From positions 30,238 through 94,237 of the IMG/VR virus record IMGVR_UViG_3300006119_000008: a stretch of DNA of 64,000 nt. One strand, 5' to 3'. Below are positions 17,733-64,000 of this stretch, in pieces; within the stretch, counting starts at the first letter, position 1, and every line of letters starts with the position of its first letter. This DNA comes from a virus. The translations under genes and the position numbers were made by a program. The notes beneath the pieces are model-generated. The model ran no database searches. It was not told the origin of the DNA and saw only the letters and a list, made by a program, of their open reading frames with translations.

Positions 17733-17927
17733 TCAATCGTCATCCTCGAGCTTCTCGTAGATACTGTTCTCAAGGTTCAGTTTGTTAGCATTGCGTGCTG
17801 TAAGCCCTTCGCCCTCTTTGATAATATCTATCTTGACCAGTGGGCTAACAATATCCAGGAAGCTGCTCTTGTTAAAAGATGTCTTTGGCAGGATTCTGGG
17901 TGAACGATCATCAAATAATCTGCTCAT
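17733..17927 (-). CDS. small hypothetical protein coupled to portal
   Basis: A 64-aa protein whose ATG overlaps the portal stop as ATGA. It is polar, with a SFLDIVSPLVKIDIIKEGEGL centre and an acidic LEDDD end. No domain is recognised. Translational coupling on both sides supports it as a real gene. Confidence 0.55.
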   Translation of the reverse strand: MSRLFDDRSPRILPKTSFNKSSFLDIVSPLVKIDIIKEGEGLTARNANKLNLENSIYEKLEDDD

Positions 17928-34646: not shown

Positions 34647-34692
34647 TGGTCCGGAGAACAGGAATTGAACCTGTGTACCGTATTTAGTACGG
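34647..34692 (-). pseudogene. 3' half of a class II tRNA, with CCA
   Basis: The sequence has a variable-arm-like hairpin (CCGTA/TACGG), a perfect T-arm (ACAGG-TTCAATT-CCTGT), an acceptor 3' strand TCTCCGG, a discriminator A and an encoded CCA. The matching 5' acceptor strand CCGGAGA, D-arm and anticodon arm are absent. The first 5 nt are shared with the 3' end of the tRNA-Ile gene. It is best read as the remains of a Leu- or Ser-type tRNA. Confidence 0.6.
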
Positions 34693-34761
34693 CGAGTAGG
34701 AGTTGAACCTACTAGTCAAAAAGATATAAGCTTTTCCGCGTAACCGTCTGCGTCTCGCCGC
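34688..34761 (-). tRNA. tRNA-Ile (anticodon UAU)
   Basis: A 74-nt cloverleaf: acceptor GCGGCGA / TCGCCGT with one G-U pair, D-arm CGC...GCG with GG in its loop, anticodon stem AAAAG/CTTTT with loop CTTATAT (U33, anticodon UAU), and T-arm GTAGG-TTCAACT-CCTAC. CCA is not encoded. It would read AUA, a rare codon in GC-rich actinobacteria, a usual reason for phages to carry such a tRNA. The 3' end overlaps a tRNA fragment and the 5' part overlaps a nuclease remnant. Confidence 0.7.
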
Positions 34762-34973
34762 TCGTTTTGTATTTTAAGGTATTGCACTACAGATGTTTTG
34801 TTTCTTTCTAACCATCCAATCTTAACATTACAGCTCAAGCAAAGCAAGCCTATTATCTTACCAGTGGCATGATCATGATCTATAGCAAAATTGTTACCAG
34901 TAGTGCACTTATGTTTTAAATCATAGGAAGGAGTCAGCACCCTGTTTGTAGAGGTCTCCTGCGCATTGATCAA
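34716..34973 (-). pseudogene. remnant of an endonuclease VII-type (His-Me) homing endonuclease
   Basis: The frame encodes FAIDHDHATGKIIGLLCLSCN, the diagnostic core of recombination endonuclease VII-like proteins (DHDHxTGxxxGLLCxxCN). The usual first CxxC and N-terminal part are missing. Its open frame only survives by running from a TTG in a structured non-coding stretch through to a stop inside the tRNA-Ile gene. I read it as a decayed mobile endonuclease that entered the tRNA cluster. Confidence 0.65.
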
Positions 34974-35010
34974 ACAGACTCCCTATCCTTACGGGTAAGG
35001 GCATCCTTCC
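34926..35010 (-). ncRNA. tRNA-sized fold lacking a T-arm (candidate degenerate tRNA or small RNA)
   Basis: 85 nt with a perfect 7-bp terminal helix GGAAGGA / TCCTTCC, a D-arm-like hairpin (CCCT...AGGG with a GG-containing loop) and a 7-bp hairpin CTGTTTG / CAAACAG. Size and spacing (5 nt from tRNA-Asn) are tRNA-like, and GGAAGGATGCCC resembles the 5' end of serine tRNAs. There is no TTCGA T-loop or clear anticodon loop. Confidence 0.35.
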
Positions 35011-35015
35011 TAAAG

Positions 35016-35088
35016 CTCCCCAGCCTGGACTCGAACCAGGAACCCGCTGATTAACAGTCAGCTGCTCTGCCAATTGAGCTACCAGGGA
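35016..35088 (-). tRNA. tRNA-Asn (anticodon GUU)
   Basis: A complete 73-nt cloverleaf: acceptor TCCCTGG / CTGGGGA (two G-U pairs), D-arm TAGCTCAATTGGCAGAGCA, anticodon stem GCTGA/TCAGC with loop CTGTTAA (anticodon GUU), T-arm CCTGG-TTCGAGT-CCAGG, discriminator G. CCA is not encoded. It lies 7 nt after the holin-like gene in transcription order. Confidence 0.95.
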
Positions 35089-42757: not shown

Positions 42758-43485
42758 TAGAGTTTCTCCAGATCTGTGTATAGGTCAGCAATACGCATCT
42801 GACCATATCTTCCAGCAGTTACAAGTTCTGGAGTTATAAGAGCCCAGCTCTCTTCCATATAGATTTTTAGCCAGTCCCAGGCTATTGGTTGCACCCTACC
42901 CCAAGAAATACAGTAGGCATAGTTGGCATCGTAGCCAGCAAGGATCACGCAATGGCCTCCTTCGATCTGTTGATCGGCAGGAGTGCCGGTTAGAGCCCAG
43001 GGTTGGTTGTTAATGAACTGTTGCTGATAAGTTACAGGCAGTTGAACGCCAATATATGCAAAACCATAGCTGGCAATCACACTCTTGAGTTCATCCAGGT
43101 CAGCGTGGTCAGTTGGGGCAAAAGCAGCCAATTTACTACCAAAAAGCTCATTTTGTTGCCAGTATTTGAGCAGATCTACCTCAACAGCCCCAGAATCCTG
43201 ACCATTGGTGTAAGCAAGGTATGCCTGCACTATTTCATCATCTGTTGGCCAGTTTTCCGTAATACCCAGTACTGCACTGTTAGCCATCCTGGCATGAACG
43301 ATACCAGCAAAGGTGCAGTCACCATATTTGTCATTTGCAAGAATGCGCCAGTCACTTACATTTGGTACAGCAACACTTTCAGGAGCAACAGGGAGAGGAT
43401 TCGTCTGATAGAAGGCCAGCATGTGCAGACCATCCGGGCGAACCGGACCCAGTTTACCTAATTTACCAGGAATCCTGTCAGTCAT
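42757..43485 (-). CDS. papain-like cysteine peptidase (C1/C39 fold)
   Basis: This 242-aa protein contains NDKYGDCTFAGIVHA (Cys57 nucleophile) and IEGGHCVILAGYD (His178), then YCISWG (about 191-196), the three blocks of papain-like folds. A conserved VPNVSDWRIL segment precedes the Cys. The family occurs in several actinophages with no tested role. No signal peptide is present, so it likely acts in the cell or the virion. It overlaps both neighbours by 1-4 nt. Confidence 0.68.
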   Translation of the reverse strand: MTDRIPGKLGKLGPVRPDGLHMLAFYQTNPLPVAPESVAVPNVSDWRILANDKYGDCTFAGIVHARMANSAVLGITENWPTDDEIVQAYLAYTNGQDSGAVEVDLLKYWQQNELFGSKLAAFAPTDHADLDELKSVIASYGFAYIGVQLPVTYQQQFINNQPWALTGTPADQQIEGGHCVILAGYDANYAYCISWGRVQPIAWDWLKIYMEESWALITPELVTAGRYGQMRIADLYTDLEKL

Positions 43486-43901
43486 CTGTCTTCAGCCTCT
43501 TTTTTATCTTGTTGGTTGTGAAAAGTATCCCACGGCCCAGTTTCTCGATCAACTTTGCCTATCCAGCAGATGGGTTTGCGTTCTAGCTGCTCATAAGCTA
43601 TAAACCTATGATGTCCATCAATAATAATATACTTTTTATTCTTGGGAGTCTTAACCAATACTATTGGTATTACCTTCCCCTTCTTGATGCGCTTCTTGCG
43701 TGCCTTTACACGGTCAGGTTCATGACTGGCTGCCCATTCATGCCTGTTATGCTGATCGATATCTGCAGGATCCACTTCAACTGGGCCAGACCAGTCAGCT
43801 TTTTTGATCCAGCCCAGGTCTTTTTCAGGAAAATCATCAGTAAGCTGGTCAAGCACACGCTTTTTCACATTAGAGCTGGCATAGCGTGTGTTCCAGTTCA
43901 T
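43482..43901 (-). CDS. ParB/Srx-fold protein with RYAS leader
   Basis: This 139-aa protein begins MNWNTRYASS. Its core is a ParB N-terminal-like (sulfiredoxin-fold) domain: VDPADIDQHNR, a Lys-rich helix, VIPIVLVKTP, and IIIDGHHRFIAYEQL with GHHR at 96-99. It lacks the helix-turn-helix and dimer domains of chromosome-partition ParB, so it should not bind parS specifically. Members may be nucleases or nucleotide-dependent modifiers. The gene is coupled to the papain-like gene. Confidence 0.72.
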   Translation of the reverse strand: MNWNTRYASSNVKKRVLDQLTDDFPEKDLGWIKKADWSGPVEVDPADIDQHNRHEWAASHEPDRVKARKKRIKKGKVIPIVLVKTPKNKKYIIIDGHHRFIAYEQLERKPICWIGKVDRETGPWDTFHNQQDKKEAEDR

Positions 43902-51441: not shown

Positions 51442-51461
51442 TGTGGATAACTTGTGGACAA
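51442..51461 (-). other. two DnaA boxes one helical turn apart
   Basis: On the minus strand are TTATCCACA (51442-51450), a perfect DnaA box, and TTGTCCACA (51453-51461), the common actinobacterial form. They are offset by 11 bp, and a weaker TTATTCATA lies at 51431 on the other strand. They end 2 bp from the first parS site. Confidence 0.7.
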
Positions 51462-51463
51462 CA

Positions 51464-51479
51464 TGTTTCACGTGAAACA
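51464..51479. other. parS site 1
   Basis: A perfect TGTTTCACGTGAAACA palindrome, identical to the chromosomal ParB-binding consensus. With flanking A/T it extends to 18 bp. It lies between the DnaA boxes and the ribosome site of the 85-aa gene. Confidence 0.85.
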
Positions 51480-51493
51480 TAGAGAGGAATATC

Positions 51494-51751
51494 ATGCAAG
51501 TGAAAGCCTGGAACAGGTACTACCTGAGCGTGGATCACAGTGACTGGTACCTGGTGGATGCTGATGCCAGTACCGTTACCCACAGCACACAGGGCATACC
51601 AACCGTGTACAAGTACCTGGAGATGCGTACTGTGCTGAACGAGCAGGGCTACATGCACCTGGAGTTCAAGCTCAGTGAGAATCTCATGCTGTGCACAGGA
51701 ACTGTGCTCATGCGCTGGGAACCGGTGTATGAATCCGTCCAACCCGAGTGA
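51494..51751 (+). CDS. hypothetical protein, 85 aa, in the parS region
   Basis: GAGG lies 6 nt before the ATG. The protein is a compact alpha/beta type (QVKAWNRYYLSVDHSDWYLVD, LEMRTVLNEQGYMHLEFKL), like a small single-domain fold. It lies between parS sites 1 and 2. No ParA or ParB similarity is seen. Function unknown. Confidence 0.6.
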   Translation: MQVKAWNRYYLSVDHSDWYLVDADASTVTHSTQGIPTVYKYLEMRTVLNEQGYMHLEFKLSENLMLCTGTVLMRWEPVYESVQPE

Positions 51752-51757
51752 TATGAA

Positions 51758-51773
51758 TGTTTCACGTGAAACA
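51758..51773. other. parS site 2
   Basis: A perfect TGTTTCACGTGAAACA, 7 nt after the stop of the 85-aa gene. It is 18 bp before site 3, both flanked on the right by AATTG. Confidence 0.85.
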
Positions 51774-51783
51774 ATTGAGCCCC

Positions 51784-51942
51784 ATGAGTAATGTTTCACG
51801 TGAAACAATTGCCCGCTGGTGTGAACTGTGTGACCACCCTGTTGAGTGGCACGTGGAGCCATGTACCAGCTGGTTGTGTGCATGTGTACGCACACATGTT
51901 TCACGTGAAACATCTGAGGAGGGTCAACATGAGTATCCCTGA
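51784..51942 (+). CDS. small Cys-rich protein containing two parS sites in its coding sequence
   Basis: Reads MSNVSRETIARWCELCDHP, VEWHVEPCTSWLCACVR, then HVSRETSE: 52 aa. Each VSRET is the translation of a parS site in this frame. The Cys set WCELC...PCTSWLC could bind zinc. A close relative of the module forms the C-terminus of the next gene's product. The ribosome site is weak and an upstream ATG (51757) is possible. It may be a real gene or a relic of module duplication. Confidence 0.45.
   Translation: MSNVSRETIARWCELCDHPVEWHVEPCTSWLCACVRTHVSRETSEEGQHEYP
51792..51807. other. parS site 3
   Basis: A perfect TGTTTCACGTGAAACA, overlapping codons 3-8 of the small Cys-rich frame. It begins a roughly 100-bp module repeated in decayed form at 52345. 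Confidence 0.85.
51897..51912. other. parS site 4
   Basis: A perfect TGTTTCACGTGAAACA. Its right end lies 4 nt before the GAGGAGG ribosome site of the next gene, so bound ParB could affect that gene's transcription. Confidence 0.85.
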
Positions 51943-52492
51943 AGAACTGGAACGGGAATACAATCGGCTGTTGAAAAAGTATCGACGCGCCGAGCGTGCC
52001 TGGCTGCGAGCCATCAGGAGTATCCCTGAGTATCAGGCGGAAGAACAGGCATCACAGGCCTGGGTCGAAGCCATGAGACGGCATTCACATCTGGATCATG
52101 AACAGCGTTCTGCTGCCACCAGATCAGAGAGAGAAGCTTTCGTTCAGGCAGCTGCTGAGTACCGTGCTGCTTGCAAGCTGGTACCCGAACGGGAACGGTA
52201 TCGCGCTGCAGAAAGAGAGTATGGTCCAGTTGCATTCAAGATGAGTGTGGCCAGGGACCGGGAGCAGGGCATCGATGTAACTTATCGTGGCCCAGCGATC
52301 TTTGATTGGACATTCCCCGATGGTAAACAGGTAAAGGTACTCATGGTTCCCCCTGAAACAATTGTGAACTGGTGCTATCTTTGTAGTCATCCGGGTGAGT
52401 GGCACGTGGAACCCTGTACAACCAGCTTGTGTGAGTGTGTGCCCAATGATCTACCAGTGCAGACAATTGATGAGGAGGATGACATGACTTAA
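51929..52492 (+). CDS. coiled-coil protein with C-terminal Cys module
   Basis: A 187-aa protein with a GAGGAGG site 7 nt upstream. Residues 1-120 are charged and helical (EELEREYNRLLKKYRRAERAW, AACKLVPERERYRAAEREYG in pieces), probably a long coiled coil. The C-terminal part (PPETIVNWCYLCSHPGEWHV, EPCTTSLCECVP) duplicates the preceding Cys-rich protein. The matching DNA still shows a worn parS (52345-52360). A structural or DNA-bridging role near parS is an attractive guess only. Confidence 0.6.
   Translation: MSIPEELEREYNRLLKKYRRAERAWLRAIRSIPEYQAEEQASQAWVEAMRRHSHLDHEQRSAATRSEREAFVQAAAEYRAACKLVPERERYRAAEREYGPVAFKMSVARDREQGIDVTYRGPAIFDWTFPDGKQVKVLMVPPETIVNWCYLCSHPGEWHVEPCTTSLCECVPNDLPVQTIDEEDDMT
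52345..52360. other. degenerate parS-like site
   Basis: GGTTCCCCCTGAAACA matches parS at 12 of 16 positions with the right half intact. It aligns with site 3 in the duplicated module and is likely a decayed copy without function. Confidence 0.4.
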
Positions 52493-54154: not shown

Positions 54155-54409
54155 ATGACAGAACTAGAAACCATCTGGGAGTTTGCTGACCGGCTCATGG
54201 CTGGCATGCAGATCCCCGAGAGCCGTCGCCGTGATCACGAGTGGATCTTACGCAATGCCGGGATCAACCGTGCCGACAGCCCAGATCTCTTGTCACTAGA
54301 GATGTGCATGCACGCTGTTCGCATCCTTGAATCAGAGCGCGGACCCTCAAACGAACAGATGCAGCTGATGATGGATTGCCTGCTTGGCGCACAGATTCCG
54401 CGGATCTGA
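54155..54409 (+). CDS. small helical protein, 84 aa
   Basis: The leader has CTACTAG and an AAAGGA site. The protein is helical (ETIWEFADRLMAGMQIPESRR, MCMHAVRILESERGPSNEQ) with an acid-base balance near neutral. Function unknown. Confidence 0.58.
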   Translation: MTELETIWEFADRLMAGMQIPESRRRDHEWILRNAGINRADSPDLLSLEMCMHAVRILESERGPSNEQMQLMMDCLLGAQIPRI

Positions 54410-54491
54410 TTGAACTGACGCCGAAAAATTTTTTTATGCCCTGGCTACATGTATAGCCTGGGAATCAACCAACCCAACAAGGGAGAGCAAC

Positions 54492-54827
54492 ATGAGCAAC
54501 AATGACACACTCTGCTACAGAGAGTACTACGATTGCCACTGTCACGGTCACGTACTGACTGTTGACATTGAAGCTTATGACAATGAGTTTTATGTGTCAC
54601 TGGTGATGTACGAGCAGAGCTATCGAGATGCTGGACGCCTGGTTCGTGCCTGGCGTGCCTTGCGTGGTAAGGATCAGCTAGTGAGTGATTTCGTGCTTGA
54701 CTCTATGAGTTCAGCAGCTCTTGCCAATCAGATCCAAGAAGCCCTGCGAATTGCCAACAGTAACAATGGCCTGACCGGTGAAGGTCTGGCCTACATCCAC
54801 AAGTACCCTGACATCGAACCCATCTAG
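54492..54827 (+). CDS. hypothetical protein, 111 aa
   Basis: GGGAGAG precedes the ATG. It has a Cys/His N-terminus (TLCYREYYDCHCHGHVLTVD) and a helical C-terminus (LANQIQEALRIANSNN). An 82-nt leader with GGCTA/TAGCC hairpin lies upstream. Not recognised. Confidence 0.58.
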   Translation: MSNNDTLCYREYYDCHCHGHVLTVDIEAYDNEFYVSLVMYEQSYRDAGRLVRAWRALRGKDQLVSDFVLDSMSSAALANQIQEALRIANSNNGLTGEGLAYIHKYPDIEPI

Positions 54828-54834
54828 GAGACAT

Positions 54835-54996
54835 ATGCAGAGATACTTCTATCGATTCTTGCAGTTCTGGTTGGTATTGAGCCTGGTTGCAGTATGTTTG
54901 GACCTGGCTCACCGCAAGTATGTTAACGCTGCATGCTTGTGTCTGGCAACAATAGGGATGGGTTTTTTTACCTATCTGATGAAAGATGAGGAATAA
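54835..54996 (+). CDS. small membrane protein, 53 aa
   Basis: Begins MQRYFYRFLQFWLVLSLVAV after a TAGGAGA site that overlaps the previous stop. It has two short hydrophobic spans (about 8-22 and 30-47) with Cys residues and a KDEE tail. Possible membrane effector acting on the host. Not recognised. Confidence 0.55.
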   Translation: MQRYFYRFLQFWLVLSLVAVCLDLAHRKYVNAACLCLATIGMGFFTYLMKDEE

Positions 54997-54997
54997 C

Positions 54998-55408
54998 ATG
55001 AAAGCTGTTATCATCCGCGCCAACAACTCCCGTGAACTGGTTGAGTTCACCAAGGAGACCAGCTACGGCATGATCAAAGCTGCTGTTGATGGCATCTTTG
55101 ACTGTGTTAGTCTGCCCAACTACGGGGTTGACATGTGGTGTAACGATGAGGGTCATATCATTGGCCTGGATCCCAACGAGTTCGCCTCGGATCTGTACCT
55201 CAAGCACTACCCCTGGTTGCTCAAAGGGCTCAGCCCCAGCATCTATCAGTACGCTATCCGTGGTGACGTGATCATCACCGGCATGGGTGATGAAGAGGGT
55301 TACACCATGGGCTTGACCGATCAGCAGGCTGAAATGCTGTTGAAGGGTGACGACAAATCCTTCTTCGAGCAGGGTCAAGAAGAAGTCCTGGAACGAGAGG
55401 AGTGCTGA
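54998..55408 (+). CDS. DUF3846-like protein, 136 aa
   Basis: VDMWCNDEGHIIGLDPNEFAS (about 46-66, in pieces), then YAIRGDVIITGMGDEEGYTMGLTDQQAEML, fit the pattern of DUF3846 proteins (small alpha/beta domain with N-E-G and G-D-x-x-I-x-G elements). This family is common in phages and plasmids of actinobacteria and firmicutes; its role is unknown. A DUF3846-like call is from motif memory. It starts 2 nt after the membrane-protein gene. Confidence 0.6.
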   Translation: MKAVIIRANNSRELVEFTKETSYGMIKAAVDGIFDCVSLPNYGVDMWCNDEGHIIGLDPNEFASDLYLKHYPWLLKGLSPSIYQYAIRGDVIITGMGDEEGYTMGLTDQQAEMLLKGDDKSFFEQGQEEVLEREEC

Positions 55409-55446
55409 TGGTATACTAAGAGTTCACGGATTGTTCACCAACAATC
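55408..55446 (+). promoter_or_regulatory. extended -10 promoter candidate and hairpin
   Basis: TG-G-TATACT (about 55409-55416) matches an extended -10. It is followed by a perfect 7-bp hairpin GATTGTT-CACC-AACAATC (55429-55446). The AAAGGA ribosome site comes 20-30 nt later. No good -35 is seen. It would give the secreted hydrolase its own transcript. Confidence 0.45.
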
Positions 55447-55475
55447 TACCGAAAGGACAGAGAGTGAGATAGCCT

Positions 55476-55988
55476 ATGACTATCAACTGGGGGCGTGTTT
55501 TTAATCGAGGATCATTCGTACTGATTGTGATGTGGGCTTGGATGAGCCTGGCTGGCAACAGCCCGGTAGCATCAAGCACAGATCATCCAACTACTACCAG
55601 TGAGGCAGTTGTTGTTGTCAGTAGTGTGGTTCACCACCCTGTTCCGCCCAGGTCATTGACCCGGTGGGACACACGCTCAACCGATCCACTTGCTAGTTGG
55701 CCCAGCAAGTATGACCCTATGTGGAGAGAACCATTCAGGGTACAGCTGGTGTTCGCATGCATCAGGTGGACAGAGTCACGCAACCACAGCACTGTCGTTG
55801 AACCGCACAGTCATGCTGGTGGTTGGTATCAGATCATGCCGCACGAATGGTGGTATGCCAGAAATAATATAGCTGGCTTACCTGCTAGTGCTGCACAAGC
55901 CACTGGAGATCAACAGAGTACCGTTGCTCTCTGGTACTATCACAGAAACCATGGCTTCAGACCAGAGTGGTCTGACGGCTGCAAGTAA
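55476..55988 (+). CDS. secreted lysozyme/transglycosylase-like protein
   Basis: A 170-aa protein with an N-terminal membrane or signal segment (about 12-28, GSFVLIVMWAWMSLAG) and a Thr/Ser/Pro linker. From residue 94 comes a lytic-transglycosylase or Rpf-like domain: ACIRWTESRNHS with catalytic Glu100, HAGGWYQIMPHEWW, then AQATGDQQSTVALWYYHRNHG and a final Cys169 able to pair with Cys95. It would cleave peptidoglycan glycan strands outside the membrane. Its placement among early-type genes rather than lysis genes is unusual. Confidence 0.72.
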   Translation: MTINWGRVFNRGSFVLIVMWAWMSLAGNSPVASSTDHPTTTSEAVVVVSSVVHHPVPPRSLTRWDTRSTDPLASWPSKYDPMWREPFRVQLVFACIRWTESRNHSTVVEPHSHAGGWYQIMPHEWWYARNNIAGLPASAAQATGDQQSTVALWYYHRNHGFRPEWSDGCK

Positions 55989-56000
55989 GAGGAGAAATCC

Positions 56001-56489
56001 ATGAGTAAGATCACCGACACCATCAAAAAGGTACAGGCCGCTACTGAAGCAGTGCTTGGCCGTGAGGTCAACACCGACGAGGTTCTCCAGACCATTGAAG
56101 CTATCGAGGTCTTGGTGAGTGCCAAAAAGCAGGCGGAGCAGCCTCAGCCTATCCCTACCACCTACGTGGTGACCAAGGGAATGCCTCAGCCTGCTGTTGT
56201 TGAGCCAGTGATTGAGCATCCAGTTGTCAAGAAGGCTAACAGGTCTCGAAACCGTTCTTACACCAATCCGGTCCGTATCATTGATTGGAAAGAACACCAG
56301 GAGTTTCTTGACCTGGTTCTCAACGGTCAGGTTCACGTGCTCAGCAACGACAGGCTGGCTGATGTCATGACCAACACCACTCAGTTTGCTACCAAGCTGC
56401 GCAAGGAAGCCAGCCTGCGTGGTTACAAGATGGTTAACATCTGGAATGACAAGAAGAAGCGCACGGTGCGCATCCACGCAGTCAAGTAG
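56001..56489 (+). CDS. hypothetical protein, 162 aa
   Basis: GGAGAA lies before the ATG. A helical N-terminus (KITDTIKKVQAATEAVLGREV), a Pro/Gln linker and a basic C-terminal domain (VRIIDWKEHQEFLDLVLNGQV, LRKEASLRGYKMVNIWNDKKK) are visible. The C-terminal part resembles a small nucleic-acid-binding fold. Possibly a regulator of the adjacent ATPase operon; unproven. Confidence 0.58.
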   Translation: MSKITDTIKKVQAATEAVLGREVNTDEVLQTIEAIEVLVSAKKQAEQPQPIPTTYVVTKGMPQPAVVEPVIEHPVVKKANRSRNRSYTNPVRIIDWKEHQEFLDLVLNGQVHVLSNDRLADVMTNTTQFATKLRKEASLRGYKMVNIWNDKKKRTVRIHAVK

Positions 56490-56502
56490 TACTGCGCAGT
56501 AC
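56489..56502. promoter_or_regulatory. 14-bp perfect palindrome before the MoxR leader
   Basis: GTACTGCGCAGTAC overlaps the end of the 162-aa gene's stop codon. Candidate operator or RNA hairpin in the 117-nt gap before the ATPase gene. Confidence 0.35.
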
Positions 56503-56549
56503 CAGTAAATTTCAACGCATTGGAGCAGTGAGCCGCCTGTGCATTGAAT

Positions 56550-56570
56550 CTGGTACCACTCCGGTACCAG
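56550..56570 (+). promoter_or_regulatory. 8-bp hairpin in the MoxR leader
   Basis: CTGGTACC-ACTCC-GGTACCAG, perfect, 37 nt upstream of the start. Together with the next hairpin it makes a two-stem leader. Confidence 0.45.
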
Positions 56571-56587
56571 TGGGGCACCACCCTTAT

Positions 56588-56605
56588 ATTATCCTGGAGG
56601 ATAAT
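56588..56605 (+). promoter_or_regulatory. hairpin burying the MoxR ribosome site
   Basis: ATTATCC-TGGA-GGATAAT is a perfect 7-bp stem that includes the GGAGG ribosome site in loop and 3' strand. It ends 1 nt before the ATG. Folded, it should block initiation; a melting event or a bound factor would turn translation on. Confidence 0.55.
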
Positions 56606-56606
56606 C

Positions 56607-57557
56607 ATGGCTGACAACAACACTCCCAACGAGTTGTTGCAAGAGTTCCTCGCTAACCCTTTGGGTATCAGCAAGGACACCGCTCAGGCAACTGAGCAAG
56701 CAGTGCCAGAATCCGTCTCGACGCACACCGCCGTGACGGCAGCCCCAACCACCCCTACCAAGGAGTACACCATGGAGCGCATCTCCTACAACCCCGACGA
56801 CTTCGGCGGTATCCCCGAGCCCGAGTGCTGGCGTGACCTGCGTGACATCATGAACGCAGGTGTCAACAAGGTCTTCCTCTCAGGCCCCCCAGGAATCGGT
56901 AAGTCCTTCGCTGGCATGTACTTCGGTGATGTCAGCCGTGGTGTCGAGCGCATGAGCTGCACCGAGGACATGACCAGTGCCGACGTTGACGGCTTCATGG
57001 GCATCACCAAGGACGGCACCTTCGACTGGCGTTACGGTGCTGCTAGCCGTGCCTGGATCAACGGCAGCCGTCTCATCATCGATGAGATCGACAAGGCTGG
57101 TAGCGATGTGCTCGCCAAGCTGTTGGCGTTCACCGACTCAGCTATGTCAGCTCGGTTTGTGATCGTTGCCACCGGCGAGACCATCGTGCCTGCACCTGGT
57201 TTCTCCGTGGTGATGACCGCCAACATCACCAACATTGACGAGCTTGACTCGGACGCGCTCAAGGACCGTTTCCCTGCGCACATCCAGATCAACGCTCCTC
57301 ACCCGTCAGCTCTCATGCAGTTCCCTGAGAGACAGCGGATGTTGGCTGCCACGCTGATCAGCTCTCGTGCTGGTAACCTCAACGGTTACAGTCAGCGTGT
57401 GTCGCTGCGCAAGTTCGAGTACTTCAACCAGCTTCTTGCTGACCCGGCATTCGACCTTGACCGTGCTGCTGCGCTTGCGTTCGGTCCTCAGCTTGCTGAG
57501 GAGATCGTCCGTCACCTGCGCCTCGGCCTGCTCAACACCGGCGAAGTCAGCTTCTAG
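56607..57557 (+). CDS. MoxR-family AAA+ ATPase
   Basis: A 316-aa protein with a polar 55-residue extension, then the AAA+ core: Walker A GPPGIGKS (93-100), Walker B LIIDEID (156-162), sensor 1 in VVMTANIT (201-208), and Arg finger candidate R221 in LKDRFPAH. MoxR ATPases act with VWA-domain partners as chaperones that remodel or insert metal into protein targets. The next gene is such a partner. The leader has an SD-hiding hairpin. Confidence 0.88.
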   Translation: MADNNTPNELLQEFLANPLGISKDTAQATEQAVPESVSTHTAVTAAPTTPTKEYTMERISYNPDDFGGIPEPECWRDLRDIMNAGVNKVFLSGPPGIGKSFAGMYFGDVSRGVERMSCTEDMTSADVDGFMGITKDGTFDWRYGAASRAWINGSRLIIDEIDKAGSDVLAKLLAFTDSAMSARFVIVATGETIVPAPGFSVVMTANITNIDELDSDALKDRFPAHIQINAPHPSALMQFPERQRMLAATLISSRAGNLNGYSQRVSLRKFEYFNQLLADPAFDLDRAAALAFGPQLAEEIVRHLRLGLLNTGEVSF

Positions 57558-57559
57558 TC

Positions 57560-59089
57560 ATGGCTAGCGAATCTAACCCGCAAGAGCCTCGGATCACGCC
57601 ACTACCCAACGTAGTTGCGTCATACCGTGAGGATCTTGACCCGTCACTGCAGTGGGAAGTTGTTCCCAGTGTAGGTGACTTCAACACCGGTGTAGACTTC
57701 GCTAAGGGAATTGTGTCTGTCCCCCTCTCGGGGGACGACCATTCCCGGCTGGTTCGGCTGCGTGAGATGGTGCGTCTTCGTATCGCACCCACTGACGACA
57801 AGCTGTTCAAGCACATTGCAAGTAAGCATGGGGGTATCGTTACTGAGCACACGCTACGGCTTGCTGACCTCGGTCGTATCAACGCTGTCACTCGTCAGTA
57901 TGCTGAAGCATTCGAGATTCCAATCGAGCCTGACGGCAGCGAGAAAGTTCTTGGCAAGCGGTTGGCTACCACCAACACGCCTCAAGCCTGGAACAAGTGC
58001 GTCGAGTTCACCGCTCAATACTTTGGCACCAAGGCGTTCGACAGCTTTGCTTCTGGCGTGCGCAGTGTCAACAGTGACTGGAGCAGTGGCTTGCGCAAGC
58101 TAGCCAAGGAGCTCAGTAGCTCATTCGATGACGACGTTGAGTCCATCGGTAACACTAAGCGTTTGAACTACGGGGATGATGTCTACGGTCCTAGTGGTTT
58201 CAATCACTCAGTGTACGCAGCCAGTAGTATTGCCAACTACATGGCTGATGGTTATCGTGCTCCGCAACAGATCCGTCAGGAACTTGCTGAGAGCGAGGAC
58301 AACCGTGCTAAGAACTACGGTGAACAGGATCCGGAAGAGATCCTGCGTGGTTACGAGCGCATTGATCCCGAGAGCCAGCTTGACACCAGTGACCTGCCTG
58401 ATGACTTTGAGTTCATAACAGATCCTGATGAAGATGAAGACAGCGGCGACATATTCGGCCCTCTCATCTTCAATCACGAGCTGCCTCTCACCGTCGAGGT
58501 CAAGGGCTACATGGCACGCAAGCGCCGCGCCAACATCATTGGTCGCAGCATTGTGTACCCCAGCCGTCGTTACACTGACCCTGAGATGCGCATGTTTGCT
58601 AACAAGATGCGTACAAAGGGTGGTATCTACCTGCTGGATGTCAGTGGTAGTATGCACGTGGATCAGGATGACATTGAGGCTATCGTTGATGTTGCGCCTG
58701 CAGCTCTCATCATGGCTTACAGTGATCCTGACAACGGCGGCGGCCTGCCAAATGCACACATCCTGGCCAAGCGTGGCTGGCGTGTTAAGGGCTTCAAGGA
58801 CGTGCAGCGTGGTGGCAACGGTGTCGATGGCACTGCTCTTACCTGGGCTATCCGTCACAAGAAGCCTGGCGAGGACATCGTCTGGGTTACTGACGGCCAG
58901 GTGTTCGGCATCCAGGGTTACGGTGGTCACGACCTGTCCATCCAGTGTGCCAAGCTGGTCAAGAAGCACCGGATCATCATGATCCCCAGCATGCGCGAGG
59001 CCATCGCTGCTTGCAGGACTGGTAAGCCAATGCGTCAGTTCAACAAGCCATCTGGTCGCGTGCGCGACGCCCTGCTCGGCAAGTACTAA
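57560..59089 (+). CDS. VWA-domain protein, MoxR partner
   Basis: A 509-aa protein starting 2 nt after the ATPase stop. The first 340 residues are a family-specific helical region with an acidic patch near residue 285-300 (DPDEDEDSGD). The C-terminal von Willebrand A domain has the metal-ion site DVSGSM (360-365), later Thr in DGTALTWA and Asp445 in WVTDGQV. It is expected to bind the ATPase and a client protein. Codon use is GC-rich like the ATPase. Confidence 0.85.
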   Translation: MASESNPQEPRITPLPNVVASYREDLDPSLQWEVVPSVGDFNTGVDFAKGIVSVPLSGDDHSRLVRLREMVRLRIAPTDDKLFKHIASKHGGIVTEHTLRLADLGRINAVTRQYAEAFEIPIEPDGSEKVLGKRLATTNTPQAWNKCVEFTAQYFGTKAFDSFASGVRSVNSDWSSGLRKLAKELSSSFDDDVESIGNTKRLNYGDDVYGPSGFNHSVYAASSIANYMADGYRAPQQIRQELAESEDNRAKNYGEQDPEEILRGYERIDPESQLDTSDLPDDFEFITDPDEDEDSGDIFGPLIFNHELPLTVEVKGYMARKRRANIIGRSIVYPSRRYTDPEMRMFANKMRTKGGIYLLDVSGSMHVDQDDIEAIVDVAPAALIMAYSDPDNGGGLPNAHILAKRGWRVKGFKDVQRGGNGVDGTALTWAIRHKKPGEDIVWVTDGQVFGIQGYGGHDLSIQCAKLVKKHRIIMIPSMREAIAACRTGKPMRQFNKPSGRVRDALLGKY

Positions 59090-59095
59090 CAACCA

Positions 59096-59139
59096 GTACC
59101 CAGTGGGCCTGCAGCAATAACTGTTGGCTCACTGGGTAC
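59096..59139 (+). terminator. 13-bp inverted repeat after the VWA gene
   Basis: TACCCAGTGGGCC and GGCTCACTGGGTA pair with one G-U over a 16-nt loop containing GCAGCAATAACTG. It begins 7 nt after the stop. No U-run, so either a terminator of unusual type or a leader hairpin for the next gene, whose ribosome site is 7 nt downstream. Confidence 0.5.
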
Positions 59140-59159
59140 ACAACCCGAAAGGTAACATC

Positions 59160-59456
59160 ATGACCACAAGCAAGCAAGACTTCATTCGCATTGCTCAGGA
59201 AAAGATCGATGCTCACACTGACATCGAACAGCTGCGTGACTTGACAACCAAGTTGGTTACGCTGCTCGGTATTCAGGATGAGATGATCGAAGCCAACGAC
59301 AAGGTTGTTACTCAGCTCAATAACCTGATCGACATGCAGAATACCATGATCAACAAGATGATTGGTCTGTGTGAGAGTTACGATGTTCCATTGCCTGACA
59401 GCACACGGAACATTGCTAAGATGATCGCAGATCGTCCCAAGCAACCACAGCATTGA
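59160..59456 (+). CDS. coiled-coil-like protein, 98 aa
   Basis: From the ATG after GAAAGG. The sequence is nearly all helix with heptads (LRDLTTKLVTLLGIQDEMIE, KVVTQLNNLIDMQNTMINKM). It probably oligomerises. Function unknown. The long structured non-coding region begins directly after its stop. Confidence 0.58.
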   Translation: MTTSKQDFIRIAQEKIDAHTDIEQLRDLTTKLVTLLGIQDEMIEANDKVVTQLNNLIDMQNTMINKMIGLCESYDVPLPDSTRNIAKMIADRPKQPQH

Positions 59457-59951
59457 GGTCAAGTGTCTTTGAGCCCAGACACTCACAAAACATGGCTCAC
59501 ACTCACCATCAGGGGAAGCTGATGGAGGTATCCAATACCTACGTACAACATTGGGGCATCTTGTGGCCGGTACAAGAAGGTGTGATCCTTTCTCACTAAT
59601 ACTTCCTAGTTGGTATGATACAAAGGAACTAGGGTCGCTCTGAGCATAGCGACTGGAATCCTGCTTGAGGTTATGCATCATTCGTTTGGTGCATAACCCC
59701 TGCTGTATCAGCTAGGCAACCAATATGCCCGCAAGTATGGGTTATCACAACCATCGACGCCGCTCTACGGCTCTGCCTAGTTGTTACACACTCAACACCA
59801 GGGGAAGCTGGTGTAGGCTAACTGTTCCTTTATACAGATCCCAGCGGAGGGTGAGAAGCTAATCTTGTCAGTTGGATGAGACATGAGAACTGACTAGGTG
59901 CTGGGCATCACCGAAGATAAACTGCCCACCCCTACAACCAGGAGGTTAGCA
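59457..59951 (+). ncRNA. highly structured non-coding region (about 490 nt)
   Basis: No coding frame with a ribosome site is present. Perfect stems follow each other: AGTGTCT/AGACACT, CCATCAG/CTGATGG, AGGTAT/ATACCT, CCTAGTT/AACTAGG, GTCGCT/AGCGAC, GGTTATGCA/TGCATAACC, a 10-bp CAGCTAGGCA/TGCCTAGTTG enclosing smaller stems, ACACCAG/CTGGTGT, and GTCAGTT/AACTGAC. The pseudoknot copy 2 ends it. Stems 2 and 8 share a GGGAAG loop and CAG/CTG closing pairs, with different outer pairs. This looks like a large phage RNA or a very long 5' leader of the 172-aa gene. Confidence 0.6.
59897..59928 (+). ncRNA. small H-type pseudoknot element, copy 2
   Basis: GGTG (59897-59900) pairs with CACC (59909-59912). 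Loop TGGGCA (59902-59907) pairs with TGCCCA (59923-59928). It ends 12 nt before the AGGAGG ribosome site of the next gene, a position suited to translation control. Copy 1 is at 51391. Confidence 0.55.
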
Positions 59952-60470
59952 ATGGCTGATGACTTCAGCGACCTTAACCTTGACATGGATGAAGCCTTTA
60001 CTGTTCGCACACAGTTTGGCATTCACCTTGGCAAGCTCAAGGATTGGATTGTTATGATGGGTCAGTTGCCCATGGCAATTAACGACATGATGGGTGGATG
60101 CATGAAAGATGGCATCGATGGCATGAAGCCATGGACCAATGAAGAAGTTGTGTCTACCTTCTCAGACATGTATGACAATCTTACCAGAGGACTCGAGGTG
60201 CTTGCTGCGATGCTTCAGCAGTCAGCCGTCGATCTGTACGGTGAACCATTCTCAACCGATTCATTTGTGATCCCTGCCCTTGGCATTGGTCTCACAGTGG
60301 GTGGGCTTGAGCTCAGCGTCGACATGGACATCGACAAGGCTATCAATGATCTGCCTGAGGAAGTTCGTGACGCTGCAATTCGTGCACTCCGTGATGTGGT
60401 TGGCGATGATCGCCTGCCAGAGGAGTTTCGCGAGCGTATCCAACAGTTCCTTCGAGAGCAAGGAGAGTAA
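59952..60470 (+). CDS. hypothetical protein, 172 aa, behind the structured leader
   Basis: A CAGGAGG site lies 6 nt before the ATG. Residues 1-100 are acidic and helical with many Met (VMMGQLPMAINDMMGGCMKDG). Residues 105-160 have a hydrophobic hairpin (VIPALGIGLTVGGLELSVD) and helices. Not recognised. As the gene directly under a large structured leader it is probably tightly regulated. Confidence 0.6.
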   Translation: MADDFSDLNLDMDEAFTVRTQFGIHLGKLKDWIVMMGQLPMAINDMMGGCMKDGIDGMKPWTNEEVVSTFSDMYDNLTRGLEVLAAMLQQSAVDLYGEPFSTDSFVIPALGIGLTVGGLELSVDMDIDKAINDLPEEVRDAAIRALRDVVGDDRLPEEFRERIQQFLREQGE

Positions 60471-60472
60471 CA

Positions 60473-60907
60473 ATGGAAGAGATGAACCAAGAGCAGTTCG
60501 AGCAGATGCTTGGGTCTGAGTCAATTGATCATATGCAGTACATCGATCTGTTTGAACAATCACGCAAGCATGTCACCATGGATGCCGTGGTTGGACTCAT
60601 GCTGCTTCGTACCATTCACGATCTCAATGATCTGTTTGATAAAATGGGTAAAGAGAAAGGGCTGGACATACTTGAAAGATTGCTGCGAGCGATCACTGCG
60701 ATGCACATGTCAGTGAGCAAAGACTTTGCTAGCAATGTGATCACAGAACACTTCAAGTATCTAAATCAGAATGAGATTACTGTGGAAGACATGCTGCGAC
60801 CTGGTGATCGTGAGCTGATCAACAGTGAGTTCAAGCGGCTCCTAGGCTGGGATGCCATGGCACTGTTTGACATGTTGATGGAAGAATCAGACGAGGAGGA
60901 AGAATAG
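60473..60907 (+). CDS. hypothetical acidic protein, 144 aa
   Basis: AGGAGAG precedes the ATG, 2 nt after the previous stop. All-helical and acidic, with long Met-rich helices (VVGLMLLRTIHDLNDLFDKMG) and an ESDEEEE end. It likely acts with the preceding protein of similar composition. No domain recognised. Confidence 0.58.
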   Translation: MEEMNQEQFEQMLGSESIDHMQYIDLFEQSRKHVTMDAVVGLMLLRTIHDLNDLFDKMGKEKGLDILERLLRAITAMHMSVSKDFASNVITEHFKYLNQNEITVEDMLRPGDRELINSEFKRLLGWDAMALFDMLMEESDEEEE

Positions 60908-60908
60908 T

Positions 60909-61334
60909 ATGAGACTGGTAGGTTGGCGTAGGGTAGATGACGGTTGGACAACACGTACCAACCGCATCTTCAACTACACTACACGCAAGCGTGATAGTGT
61001 TGACATTGCTTTCTACTTACAAGAGGGCAATGAACTGGGTTTGCGCATCAAGTATCCTGTGCTCAATGTTGTTGGCATCAAAAATGACAGGATCAATCGC
61101 AATGATATCTTGATGAGTATCAATTGCAGAAGCAGTTGGCATGCTAAGGAACTGGTTGATTGCATGATGATGCTGGCTGTCCAACTTCAGACTAATGGCA
61201 TTTCGGAAGAAGATGTCAGAAAGTGGGTGAATGTTCAACTCAAGTTGATGGATACTAGTATCAGTCATAGGGACAGGGAGCCAGCAGAATCCATTAATGC
61301 TACGCATAATCGTCGCTACTCAAGAACCTTCTAG
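60909..61334 (+). CDS. hypothetical protein, 141 aa
   Basis: Starts 1 nt after the previous stop. A beta-rich N-terminal half (WRRVDDGWTTRTNRIFNYTT, LGLRIKYPVLNVVGI) and a helical C-terminal half (LVDCMMMLAVQLQTNGISEED) with a basic tail. AGGAGGAA within the upstream gene end supplies the ribosome site. Not recognised. Confidence 0.58.
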   Translation: MRLVGWRRVDDGWTTRTNRIFNYTTRKRDSVDIAFYLQEGNELGLRIKYPVLNVVGIKNDRINRNDILMSINCRSSWHAKELVDCMMMLAVQLQTNGISEEDVRKWVNVQLKLMDTSISHRDREPAESINATHNRRYSRTF

Positions 61335-61343
61335 GAGGAACAC

Positions 61344-61628
61344 ATGACTACAAGCATTGACAAGGATTTGATCAGGCCTCTGCTTGATTACAATCCTGGA
61401 GACTGGCGGGATCAAGCAGCCTGCAAAAACATGGACACAAATCTGTTCTTCACCGATACTGGTGATGGCGGTCAGGACCTGGACAAGATGCGCATTGCCC
61501 TGGAAGCCTGCCGCAACTGCCCTGTTGTAGCAGAGTGTTTGAAGTTTGGTCAGTCCAATGATCTCAGGTATGGTATCTACGGTGGTCACCGTCGTACCCG
61601 CCGTGGTCAGTGGGTCAGCCTGATCTAA
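61344..61628 (+). CDS. WhiB-family iron-sulfur regulator
   Basis: A 94-aa protein with the WhiB signature: DWRDQAACKNMD (Cys27), then CRNC (Cys56, Cys59) and AECLKFG (Cys65), which bind a [4Fe-4S] cluster. The GIYGG turn (77-81) and a basic RRTRRG tail follow. WhiB proteins bind the primary sigma factor and steer transcription in actinobacteria. Phage versions can repress host WhiB targets. It is strong evidence for an actinobacterial host. AGGAGGA precedes the ATG. Confidence 0.93.
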   Translation: MTTSIDKDLIRPLLDYNPGDWRDQAACKNMDTNLFFTDTGDGGQDLDKMRIALEACRNCPVVAECLKFGQSNDLRYGIYGGHRRTRRGQWVSLI

Positions 61629-61698
61629 TAACAACAATCAAGATCCCTGAGTCAGTGAGCCTCTGGGTATCTGTGCAGTACCAGATGAAAGGAAAATC

Positions 61699-61899
61699 AT
61701 GAACACACTGTTGCCACTCGTGGACCAGCTCATTGCTTATGAGTCTGGTGAACTCGAGTTCTCAGATACTATCAAACTGTTTCAAGAGTTGATCGATACC
61801 GGTCACGCTTGGACCCTACAAGGTCACTACGGTCGTACAGCCATGCGACTGATTGAAGATGGGCTTTGCCATCACCCAGTGCAAGAAGAGGAAGAGTAA
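61699..61899 (+). CDS. small hypothetical protein, 66 aa
   Basis: AAAGGA lies before the ATG, after a 70-nt gap. Helical sequence ([40 protein letters not shown]). The motif 'LIAYESGEL' with 'RLIEDGLC' resembles small phage proteins of the DUF7417 kind known from actinophages. Function unknown; assignment is tentative. Confidence 0.6.
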
Positions 61900-61900
61900 C

Positions 61901-62107
61901 ATGACATACCGTACAGCTATATACATCGAAGCAGACACCAGTCAGTTCTGGTGTGAAGCTTGCGTGAACCAGCGTGAGCAAAGTAATGTAGATGCGGATG
62001 GCTATCCAGTCGATGAATTGTTCTGGACCATCGGTTATCTTACCAACGGTGACAGCATCAACTGCACCCAGTGTGAAAGTGTGGTTGTAGATGAACTCCT
62101 CAGCTGA
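61901..62107 (+). CDS. small zinc-ribbon protein, 68 aa
   Basis: Starts 1 nt after the previous stop. FWCEAC (about 17-21) and INCTQC (about 54-58) form a Cys4 ribbon around a VDELFWTIGYLTNGD segment. Likely binds nucleic acid or protein. In a compact run of small Cys-rich genes. Confidence 0.62.
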   Translation: MTYRTAIYIEADTSQFWCEACVNQREQSNVDADGYPVDELFWTIGYLTNGDSINCTQCESVVVDELLS

Positions 62108-62252
62108 TAGCAAAACCTGCCCGTTGTGCGGTTTAGAATACTCTGGGACTGGCGCCCTGAGTAGAACCGATAACACCACAGAGATCTGTAGCATCTGTGG
62201 TGTTGAGCAAGGGCTCAAGAGTTTCATCATGAACTACAAAGGAGAGCGATGA
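62091..62252 (+). CDS. small zinc-ribbon protein, 53 aa, overlapping gene
   Basis: Starts inside the end of the previous gene and encodes KTCPLCGLEYSGTGAL, then EICSICGVEQGLKSF: a classic two-CxxC ribbon of the kind very common in phage early regions. A GGAGAG motif near its end serves the next gene. Reading-frame overlap with two neighbours supports it. Confidence 0.68.
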   Translation: MNSSADSKTCPLCGLEYSGTGALSRTDNTTEICSICGVEQGLKSFIMNYKGER

Positions 62253-62419
62253 AAAACAAATACAAGCTCAAGCGTGCATACCTGTACAAGGTAACTGACC
62301 GACGCTTTCTGTTGCCATGCCTGCGCAAGTATGACAATGATGGTTGGGTACTGGATGGCGTACTGTTTGGATGGTGCTTTGTATACAACTTCAGAGGTGG
62401 ATACGATGATCATCGATAA
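62249..62419 (+). CDS. small basic protein, 56 aa
   Basis: ATGA overlap with the ribbon gene. It reads KYKLKRAYLYKVTDRRFLLP, then a Gly/Asp/Trp-rich part (DGWVLDGVLFGWCFVYNFRG). It overlaps the next gene's start by 14 nt. Basic N-terminus, hydrophobic end. Function unknown. Confidence 0.52.
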   Translation: MKNKYKLKRAYLYKVTDRRFLLPCLRKYDNDGWVLDGVLFGWCFVYNFRGGYDDHR

Positions 62420-62669
62420 TAAGTTTAGAGTCGGAGACAAGGTACGGATCATTGGTGAACCTGATTGGGGTACCTTTACCGTGACGCAAGTAGATACTGT
62501 GTGCACCATTATTGATTCTGTAGGCGTTGATGATGTTATGCTTGCGCATCAGCTGGCGTTCGCACCAGTATGTGGTCACATTGATGGTGGAGAAATCCTT
62601 GATCCTGATGAAGGTACTAACATCTGGGTGAATTTCAAATACTGTCCAGAGTGTGGAGAGGCAATATAA
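62406..62669 (+). CDS. zinc-motif protein with SH3-like N-terminus, 87 aa
   Basis: AGAGGTGG precedes the ATG. FRVGDKVRIIGEPDWGTFTV looks like a KOW/SH3 barrel. The C-terminal part has CGHIDGGE...YCPECGEAI, a Cys4-type site. The stop overlaps the next ATG as TAATG. Possibly RNA-binding; not proven. Confidence 0.6.
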   Translation: MIIDNKFRVGDKVRIIGEPDWGTFTVTQVDTVCTIIDSVGVDDVMLAHQLAFAPVCGHIDGGEILDPDEGTNIWVNFKYCPECGEAI

Positions 62670-62830
62670 TGGGATACTACTCTGAAAGAACCTGCCCTGA
62701 ATGTCTGAGCATACCCTGCGCCTGGTACTGTGGTGTTGAGTGCGAGTGCTCTGATGGCAATGAAGGAATTGATCACGATGAATGCACCGACGATGAGTGC
62801 GAGTGCCGACTACACGGAGATGGAGAATGA
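62669..62830 (+). CDS. very Cys-rich acidic protein, 53 aa
   Basis: Coupled by TAATG. The sequence has ten Cys in 53 residues (TCPECLSIPCAWYCGVECEC, then ECTDDECECRLHG), nearly all as CxC or CxxC. It may bind two or more zinc ions. No family recognised. Confidence 0.58.
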   Translation: MGYYSERTCPECLSIPCAWYCGVECECSDGNEGIDHDECTDDECECRLHGDGE

Positions 62831-63213
62831 ATCAGTATTCAAGAGACGCACTGCGTCGTGAGCATCATCTGTTTGTCTATGAAGACAGGATGACAGGTGA
62901 TGATGTAGAAGCCTGCGATGTATGTGGTGATGGCTATCCCTGCGATGTTATCTTTGTACTGGATGCTTGGGAGGCAGAGAAGCCACAAGAGAATGAGTCA
63001 GCACCCAAGTACTATCGTTGGGATGATGCCAAGCAGCTTACCGGCATTATGCCTGTGTTTGAAGCATACGAACGTGGTGAGCCAATCAATTTGGGCAACG
63101 GCGCAACACTTGTGAAGTGCGACCACGCCGACTGGACCAGCAATGCCTATTCTGAAGACATCTACGCTGACATGGGTTATCGCTACTGCCCCAAGTGTGG
63201 AGAGAAACTATGA
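62827..63213 (+). CDS. zinc-motif protein, 128 aa, paralog of the last gene
   Basis: ATGA overlap with the Cys-rich gene. The N-terminus MNQYSRDALRREHH is followed by ACDVCGDGYPCDVIFVLD, and the end has VKCDHADW...YCPKCGEKL. The first motif C-x2-C-x2-G-x-PCD-x-I recurs in the gene at 63776. Such 'GWPCD' proteins are common in actinophages with unknown role. Confidence 0.62.
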   Translation: MNQYSRDALRREHHLFVYEDRMTGDDVEACDVCGDGYPCDVIFVLDAWEAEKPQENESAPKYYRWDDAKQLTGIMPVFEAYERGEPINLGNGATLVKCDHADWTSNAYSEDIYADMGYRYCPKCGEKL

Positions 63214-63776
63214 ACAACATCATCAGAAACAAGCCCTACTACAAGGGTGTCACAAAAGACCTGAAGTCACCAACACAGGCCAACAAACTTACCTACACGC
63301 CGGGAACGATTGTCGAAGCCGATGACCTCAACCTTGACCCAGACAAGGACTGCGGTGCAGGTATCAACTTCTGCTCAACCCTTGCCGGTGCGTTGAGGTG
63401 GGCTAGGTGTGGAACTGTGGTCACAGTGACGGTGCCGGACGGTGAACCCATCGTGGACACTGGCGACAAGTTGCGAGCCAAGCGAGTTCTCGTTGGCGAA
63501 GTGGTGAGCCTCAGTGGCGCATACCTCGTTGGCGCAGACCTCACGGACGCAGACCTCAGGGACGCAGACCTCAGTGGCGCAGACCTCACGGACGCAAACC
63601 TCAGGGACGCATACCTCACGGTCGCAGACCTCACGGACGCAAACCTCTGGGACGCAAACCTCGTTGGCGCATACCTCAGGGACGCAGACCTCAGGAACGC
63701 ACGTGGCAACGACCGCACCATTCTTCCTAAGGGCTACAAGGTTGTAGATGGCTATGTCGTGAGGGAGGCAGAGTGA
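63210..63776 (+). CDS. pentapeptide-repeat protein
   Basis: A 188-aa protein. The first 95 residues are a separate domain (YYKGVTKDLKSPTQANKLTY, CSTLAGALRWARCGTVVTV) resembling DUF7666-like phage domains. Residues about 98-165 are at least thirteen A(D/N/Y)LxxA pentapeptides (for example ADLTDADLRDADLSGADL), which form a right-handed square beta-helix. Such helices can mimic DNA and act on gyrase, but other roles exist. The DNA shows a 15-bp period, which creates long false frames on other strands. Confidence 0.82.
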   Translation: MNNIIRNKPYYKGVTKDLKSPTQANKLTYTPGTIVEADDLNLDPDKDCGAGINFCSTLAGALRWARCGTVVTVTVPDGEPIVDTGDKLRAKRVLVGEVVSLSGAYLVGADLTDADLRDADLSGADLTDANLRDAYLTVADLTDANLWDANLVGAYLRDADLRNARGNDRTILPKGYKVVDGYVVREAE

Positions 63777-64000
63777 TGAACCAGCAAGAGCGAGATGCCC
63801 TGCGAGAGAAACACCGTTGCCTTGAGAGCAAGGTTGGCCCGTGGTGTCGTTCCTGTATGCACGGTTGGCCCTGCGACACCATCCACGCACTCAACCTCTA
63901 CGACGACCTCGTGGACAACGCTCGGTTCATGCTCAAAGAGGTCACGCCTAGCGAATACGGTTCCGCCTACGCACACGGCTACCGAGTGGCACTCCAAGAC
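63776..64000 (+). CDS. zinc-motif protein (partial, runs off window)
   Basis: ATGA overlap with the pentapeptide gene. At least 75 aa: MNQQERDALREKHRCLESKV, then WCRSCMHGWPCDTIHALNLYD. It aligns with the protein at 62827 through the N-terminus and the Cys motif. A GGGAGG ribosome site precedes it. The 3' end is beyond the window. Confidence 0.68.
   Translation, partial: MNQQERDALREKHRCLESKVGPWCRSCMHGWPCDTIHALNLYDDLVDNARFMLKEVTPSEYGSAYAHGYRVALQD

Follow-up and report, generated by a model that had tools for sequence, protein, structure and literature searches.

The locus described here lies in a window of 64,000 nucleotides of viral DNA, which forms part of a 94,237-bp contig. Four exact copies of the 16-bp parS palindrome TGTTTCACGTGAAACA start at positions 51464, 51758, 51792 and 51897 and span 449 bp. 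Directly to the left of the first copy two DnaA boxes are found, both exact and both on the minus strand, namely TTATCCACA (51442-51450) and, 11 bp from it and in the same orientation, TTGTCCACA (51453-51461). Site 1 (51464-51479) lies in the leader of the gene for an 85-aa protein (51494-51751, plus strand) and ends 14 nt before its ATG at 51494; this protein has no assigned function and matches neither Pfam nor PHROG families. Site 2 (51758-51773) ends 10 nt before the ATG at 51784 of a gene encoding a 52-aa cysteine-rich, zinc-ribbon-like protein (51784-51942, plus strand; MSNVSRET...VSRET...). Sites 3 (51792-51807, in codons close to the gene start) and 4 (51897-51912, at the 3' end) are located inside this gene, and each is translated as Val-Ser-Arg-Glu-Thr (VSRET). 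The next ATG, at 51929, follows the end of site 4 after 16 nt and starts the gene for a 187-aa protein (51929-52492, plus strand). At its C-terminus this protein repeats the 52-aa protein in diverged form (approximately 52343-52470), and in this paralogous copy the parS is decayed to GGTTCCCCCTGAAACA with four mismatches (52343-52364). Since the paralog has lost its parS, the intact sites are not due to the protein sequence alone.

Further parS sites with up to three mismatches occur neither in the window nor in the whole contig, and none with up to two mismatches was found in the additional 42 kb of this genome described below. An earlier note on this DNA had reported four exact copies within 450 bp, had called chance negligible and had placed a perfect and an actinobacterial DnaA box, 11 bp apart, to the left of site 1. 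All of this is borne out: a first-order model expects 4e-5 exact parS copies per contig, and none of 100 shuffled windows contained four or more parS-like sites (at most three mismatches). The number of DnaA boxes is unremarkable, since the contig contains two exact TTRTCCACA words where 2.5 are expected by chance, and when up to one mismatch is allowed, the window shows no excess of boxes (26 versus 37.6 expected). Their position, by contrast, is remarkable, as at least two exact boxes within 40 bp of parS sites have a probability of about 2e-5 (a post hoc figure). In bacterial origins parS adjoining DnaA boxes is an established feature, and the segment is found near the divergence of both transcription arms, at the end of the plateau of the GC-skew minimum. 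The likeness to the arrangement of oriC and parAB in bacteria, which the earlier note had asserted, stands as an analogy but not in the strict sense: the box-box-parS word of the window gave no match in 84,980 genomes, so that no donor chromosome was found.

The IMG/VR record G012 (105,159 bp) overlaps the contig twice, each time with 100% identity: it matches window positions 54381-64000, extends about 42 kb beyond them and then runs into the left end of the 94,237-bp contig. With these two overlaps, from which a length of about 136 kb was calculated, the phage genome is closed and fully covered, in keeping with circular or circularly permuted DNA. It belongs to a large myovirus with a portal about 37-40% identical to the portal of Mycobacterium cluster C phages, and tail sheath, baseplate and major head proteins are encoded on the contig. 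The portal relatives together with the TTGTCCACA box make an actinobacterial host likely. The portal gene (window 17924-21307) contains an intein with a LAGLIDADG endonuclease domain, and two tRNA genes, tRNA-Ile (anticodon tat) and tRNA-Asn, are present at window positions 34687-35088. Genes of replication and recombination comprise Pol III alpha, a DnaB-type helicase, an IstB/DnaC-like ATPase, a Toprim primase, RecA and endonuclease VII. While the phage encodes a helicase loader, its genes yielded no recognisable initiator, and the combination of a DnaC/IstB-like loader with a DnaB-type helicase would suit an origin marked by DnaA. In the numbering of L327 these two phage genes lie side by side (15498-16298 and 14215-15498). 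A tyrosine integrase was found neither in G000 or G001 nor among the ORFs of at least 200 aa in the DNA present in G012 only, and classic lysogenic segregation is therefore unlikely. For a phage that looks virulent and brings its own replisome, stable maintenance as an episome is just one option.

The earlier note had seen a single ParB-fold protein in the window and had denied it a helix-turn-helix. The ORF is real (43482-43901, minus strand) and encodes 139 aa with a GxxRxxA motif (GHHRFIA); it matches Pfam ParB_N (E=0.007) and PHROG 1033 (E=1e-6) but scores below the curated cut-offs, and far under the cut-off in the case of TIGR00180. As a helix-turn-helix is indeed absent, this protein cannot be what reads parS. 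The closest relative encodes an equally short homologue of it with 59% identity, and in the window its gene is unlinked to the parS sites, being located 7.5 kb off on the opposite strand. An AlphaFold prediction with two sequences reached a pLDDT of 39 and was unusable. The 139-aa protein is not a partition ParB. TIGR00180, representing canonical ParB with its helix-turn-helix, never scored above cut-off in G000 or G001; the weak match of the 139-aa protein is the sole one to ParB_N in the genome, with none in G012. Matches to AAA_31 or CbiA, which would indicate ParA, are absent from G000 and G001, and no ParA was detected among the ORFs of at least 200 aa scanned by Pfam in the other 42 kb. 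Extended to the rest of the genome, as the earlier note had asked, the search thus agrees with that note, as neither a full-length ParB nor a ParA was present among the proteins examined. The phage appears to be without a partition system of its own, and the parS-type centromere seems to be carried while the cognate parAB is absent.

The sites are conserved in the closest relative, locus L127 (a 58.5-kb record), which has kept both DnaA boxes and three of the four parS sites (1, 3 and 4). The comparison with related phages, the other check called for in the earlier note, thus likewise favours its interpretation. Site 2 is missing there and a different 70-aa gene is found in its place. The 85-aa protein is 98% identical in both phages and the 52-aa protein 91% over 44 aa, while gene content between the sites differs. 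Immediately beyond the boxes on one side and beyond site 4 on the other the similarity of the two sequences drops abruptly, and the next upstream gene is 43% identical. Searches with the neighbouring proteins revealed no relatives beyond this one record, and a DNA-level search of the region among cultured phages gave no matches. Among 80 loci selected by distant AAA-ATPase homologues (1.2 Mb, many loci incomplete) no parS was detected except in the distant relative L063, which means that the wider group did not inherit the parS element from its common ancestor. In L063 one parS is located about 1.1 kb upstream of a DUF3846-type gene, and the same type of gene is found about 3.1 kb downstream of the parS cluster of the window. 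The cassettes swapped around the sites between the window and L127, and a site 2 that only one of them possesses, could reflect neutral capture of an ori-proximal host fragment, or the spread of parS as a word marking the boundaries at which phage gene cassettes recombine. We disfavour this explanation and regard it as very improbable: the sites are perfect even where the flanking DNA falls to 53-68% identity in two other lineages, they occur in host-matched versions with a bias for intergenic positions, and the decayed copy at 52343-52364 demonstrates what an unselected copy looks like. The failure to retrieve the box-box-parS word from any of the 84,980 genomes also speaks against it.

The same palindrome is found in many other phages. 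In INPHARED 315 of 50,697 records of cultured or deposited phages match 16-18 nt of the 18-bp palindrome ATGTTTCACGTGAAACAT. Near-identical records (Listeria, Microbacterium) inflate this count, and some of the Listeria and gut records are possibly prophage or host fragments; two dinucleotide-matched palindromes used as controls gave no record each. In IMG/VR at least 120 stretches contain the parS 16-mer versus 11 for the control, and in 40 stretches two exact copies lie no more than 50 bp apart (start to start). The carriers belong to unrelated groups and comprise myo- and siphophages of actinobacteria, Lactobacillus, Bacillus and Ruegeria, besides phi29-like phages, filamentous phages and microviruses. 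When the annotation was checked site by site, 25 of 33 exact sites turned out to be intergenic, in genomes that are mostly coding. A canonical ParB (TIGR00180 above cut-off) is encoded by none of 23 annotated carrier phages. Two loci of a third group (L020 and L047, with SU10-like portal or terminase genes) possess five parS each near the terminase, and their DNA apart from parS is 53% identical. The filamentous bajarodino virus 3 (L151, 6,183 bp) contains six exact parS, four of them intergenic, and is an attractive small test system. Cultured carriers include Arthrobacter phage Huntingdon with one intergenic site, Gordonia phage Woes with two sites and Bacillus phage vB_BcoS-136 with four. 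In the Microbacterium phages KaiHaiDragon, Quhwah and their relatives parS is located within the gene of a helix-turn-helix DNA-binding protein and has been kept in many isolates; KaiHaiDragon encodes a separate ParB_N protein besides the parS-bearing gene.

The position of the sites relative to genes is the basis of the main rival explanation, in which host ParB, bound to parS or spreading from it, would repress or time small early genes with sites in their leaders and segregation would play no part. Three sites of the window are located in leaders or at gene ends in an operator-like manner, which is a counterpoint to the reading as a centromere, and the distances of 10-16 nt between sites 1, 2 and 4 and the following start codons fit transcription control. 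In other phages many sites fill short gaps right before genes, and the parS of L063 abuts a promoter-like repeat. In Pseudomonas aeruginosa ParB is known to repress promoters that adjoin parS3 and parS4 (PMC5521831), and the parS of SGI1 appears to influence the SGI1 rep operon (PMC10954446). On the other hand, the genes adjoining parS differ between carriers, and some sites serve no single promoter, since they are situated at convergent gene ends (Lana, XD2), in coding sequence or in arrays of DnaA boxes. We therefore consider control of transcription as the only function of the sites to be possible but rather unlikely, and local gene repression by ParB need not exclude a role in segregation.

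Which protein reads the sites is indicated by the parS version that a phage carries. The version found in Pseudomonas chromosomes is TGTTCCACGTGGAACA. It occurs in 58 phage records, with Pseudomonas phages contributing most of any group (17), and among the annotated Pseudomonas-phage records it is located outside genes in 14 of 16. Five Pseudomonas phages were inspected closely: TGTTCCACGTGGAACA is intergenic in all five, and four of them contain extra sites of the same type. Ten records of Klebsiella phages contain TGTTCCACGTGGAACA as well, and Klebsiella is not known to have a ParB of the Pseudomonas type. Here, the word is intragenic in all eight annotated records and intergenic in none, as chance would give. 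No other single argument speaks as strongly as this host matching for the ParB of the host, rather than a phage protein, as the reader. A phage-encoded DNA-binding protein unrelated to ParB, for which the same palindrome would be the operator of a phage regulator, has in its favour that most phage genes here are without assigned function and that some Microbacterium phage sites are found within a helix-turn-helix protein gene. Nevertheless, tailed dsDNA phages, phi29-like phages, filamentous phages and microviruses have no regulator in common and yet all contain the exact 16-bp consensus of the host, and the Pseudomonas-specific version is found in phages of Pseudomonas, so that we assign to such a regulator the smallest probability of all explanations. 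Binding of host ParB to the phage parS is very likely. The recurrence of host-fitting parS versions in many unrelated phages suggests that phages commonly recruit the host segregation protein, and the recruitment of host ParB proposed in the earlier note gains support from these independent phages with the same feature.

A second, unrelated phage group joins parS to whole arrays of DnaA boxes. In seven IMG/VR loci (L213, L216, L220, L222, L226, L228 and L231) five to eight boxes surround one parS ahead of the terminase-side genes. The four longest invariant words of this group (CCTGTGGATAACTTATGCACA, GTGTTTCACGTGAAACAT, ACCTGTGGATAACCCC and CCTGTGGATAACTTA) are three DnaA-box words and parS, and they span pairs as low as 63% identical. 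That these loci represent misfiled host oriC DNA is ruled out by the terminase, capsid and primase-helicase genes of L220. The region 6400-6700 of L220 and its homologues resembles a full bacterial oriC with up to eight DnaA boxes, one parS and AT-rich repeats, followed by an HTH-type gene. Locus L227 contains two DnaA boxes and parS, while most parS carriers have no adjoining DnaA boxes.

From this distribution we conclude that the phage parS copies are probably selected loading sites for host ParB, which in the window are joined to a putative DnaA-dependent origin. The segment at 51.44-51.91 kb would act in cis as a putative combination of an origin with a stolen centromere. Its four parS sites would load the CTP-clamp of the host chromosomal ParB onto the phage DNA, and the pair of boxes would allow host DnaA to mark or open the origin and to hand over to the phage's own DnaC/IstB-like loader, DnaB-type helicase, primase and Pol III alpha. 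Most likely the loaded ParB would then place, separate and condense the replicating phage genomes via host ParA and SMC, either during infection or in a carrier state. Both the binding of ParB and DnaA and the effect of loaded ParB, i.e., positioning, segregation or SMC loading as opposed to gene control, are what we infer from sequence. With two boxes, fewer than the normal complement of an oriC, the putative origin has its own counterpoint, and the reading as a whole, including recruitment of ParB and DnaA, is regarded as probable with considerable reservation. A further possibility is a decoy, in which the phage copies would titrate host ParB (and DnaA), block segregation or initiation in the host and free the cell machinery. 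Four sites per genome multiplied by the copy number of a replicating phage exceed the parS set of a chromosome, and SGI1 parS copies destabilise the helper plasmid through titration (PMC10954446). A single site, as present in many carriers, is however a weak sponge, the whole contig has just two DnaA boxes, and hosts often tolerate the loss of ParB, which makes the gain for the phage doubtful; a decoy is accordingly seen as improbable. For the wider proposal the chances appear evenly balanced: host parS without ParB may be a general and convergent strategy of tailed, filamentous and microvirus phages of ParABS bacteria, and in some lineages its fusion with DnaA-box arrays may give the phage genome the guise of a second chromosome origin that recruits ParB, SMC and DnaA during infection.

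If this is true, the chromosome-segregation machinery of the host is a routinely exploited phage resource that is visible in hundreds of sequenced phages. The action of the ParB clamp on viral DNA and of SMC condensin on phage genomes would become testable in cultured phages, as would the persistence of integrase-less phages in dividing cells and the use of host DnaA at an oriC look-alike. The carriers offer natural minimal parS and oriC modules, and the rule that the parS version equals the host version may aid host prediction.

In the literature searched no report of phages stealing host parS was found, the nearest cases being parABS of the RedRock type, orphan phage ParB and hijacking by SGI1. 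Stand-alone phage proteins of the ParB-CTPase fold have been surveyed (PMC12704722) and share the ParB_N core motif with the 139-aa protein of the window, which in turn has no helix-turn-helix and is unlinked to the parS sites. RedRock and its relatives are mycobacteriophages with extrachromosomal prophages; both ParA and ParB are phage-encoded there, and the partition locus relies on arrays of 8-bp direct repeats (PMC7157519). They resemble the window phage as actinophage genomes with a partition locus near a putative origin but differ from it, since here ParA, ParB and the 8-bp repeat arrays are all absent. With chromosomal ParABS of actinobacteria, Bacillus, Pseudomonas and others the phage shares the identical 16-bp parS and the clustering of several sites, yet it has the site alone, without parA and without an HTH-bearing parB. 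In P. aeruginosa a single oriC-proximal parS suffices (PMC4368675). The tandem DnaA boxes 11 bp apart that adjoin parS in the window, and the five to eight boxes of the L220 group, are reminiscent of a bacterial oriC, from which the window phage differs by having two boxes and no dnaA or dnaN genes. The closest precedent is the theft of IncC parS by SGI1, which lacks parAB, carries copies of the IncC plasmid parS, binds IncC ParB and gains stability, as demonstrated by EMSA and loss assays (PMC10954446). In both cases a mobile element without parAB carries the parS of another replicon; SGI1, however, is integrative and its parS is of the plasmid type, whereas here phages, some of them with DnaA boxes, carry the chromosomal parS of their hosts.
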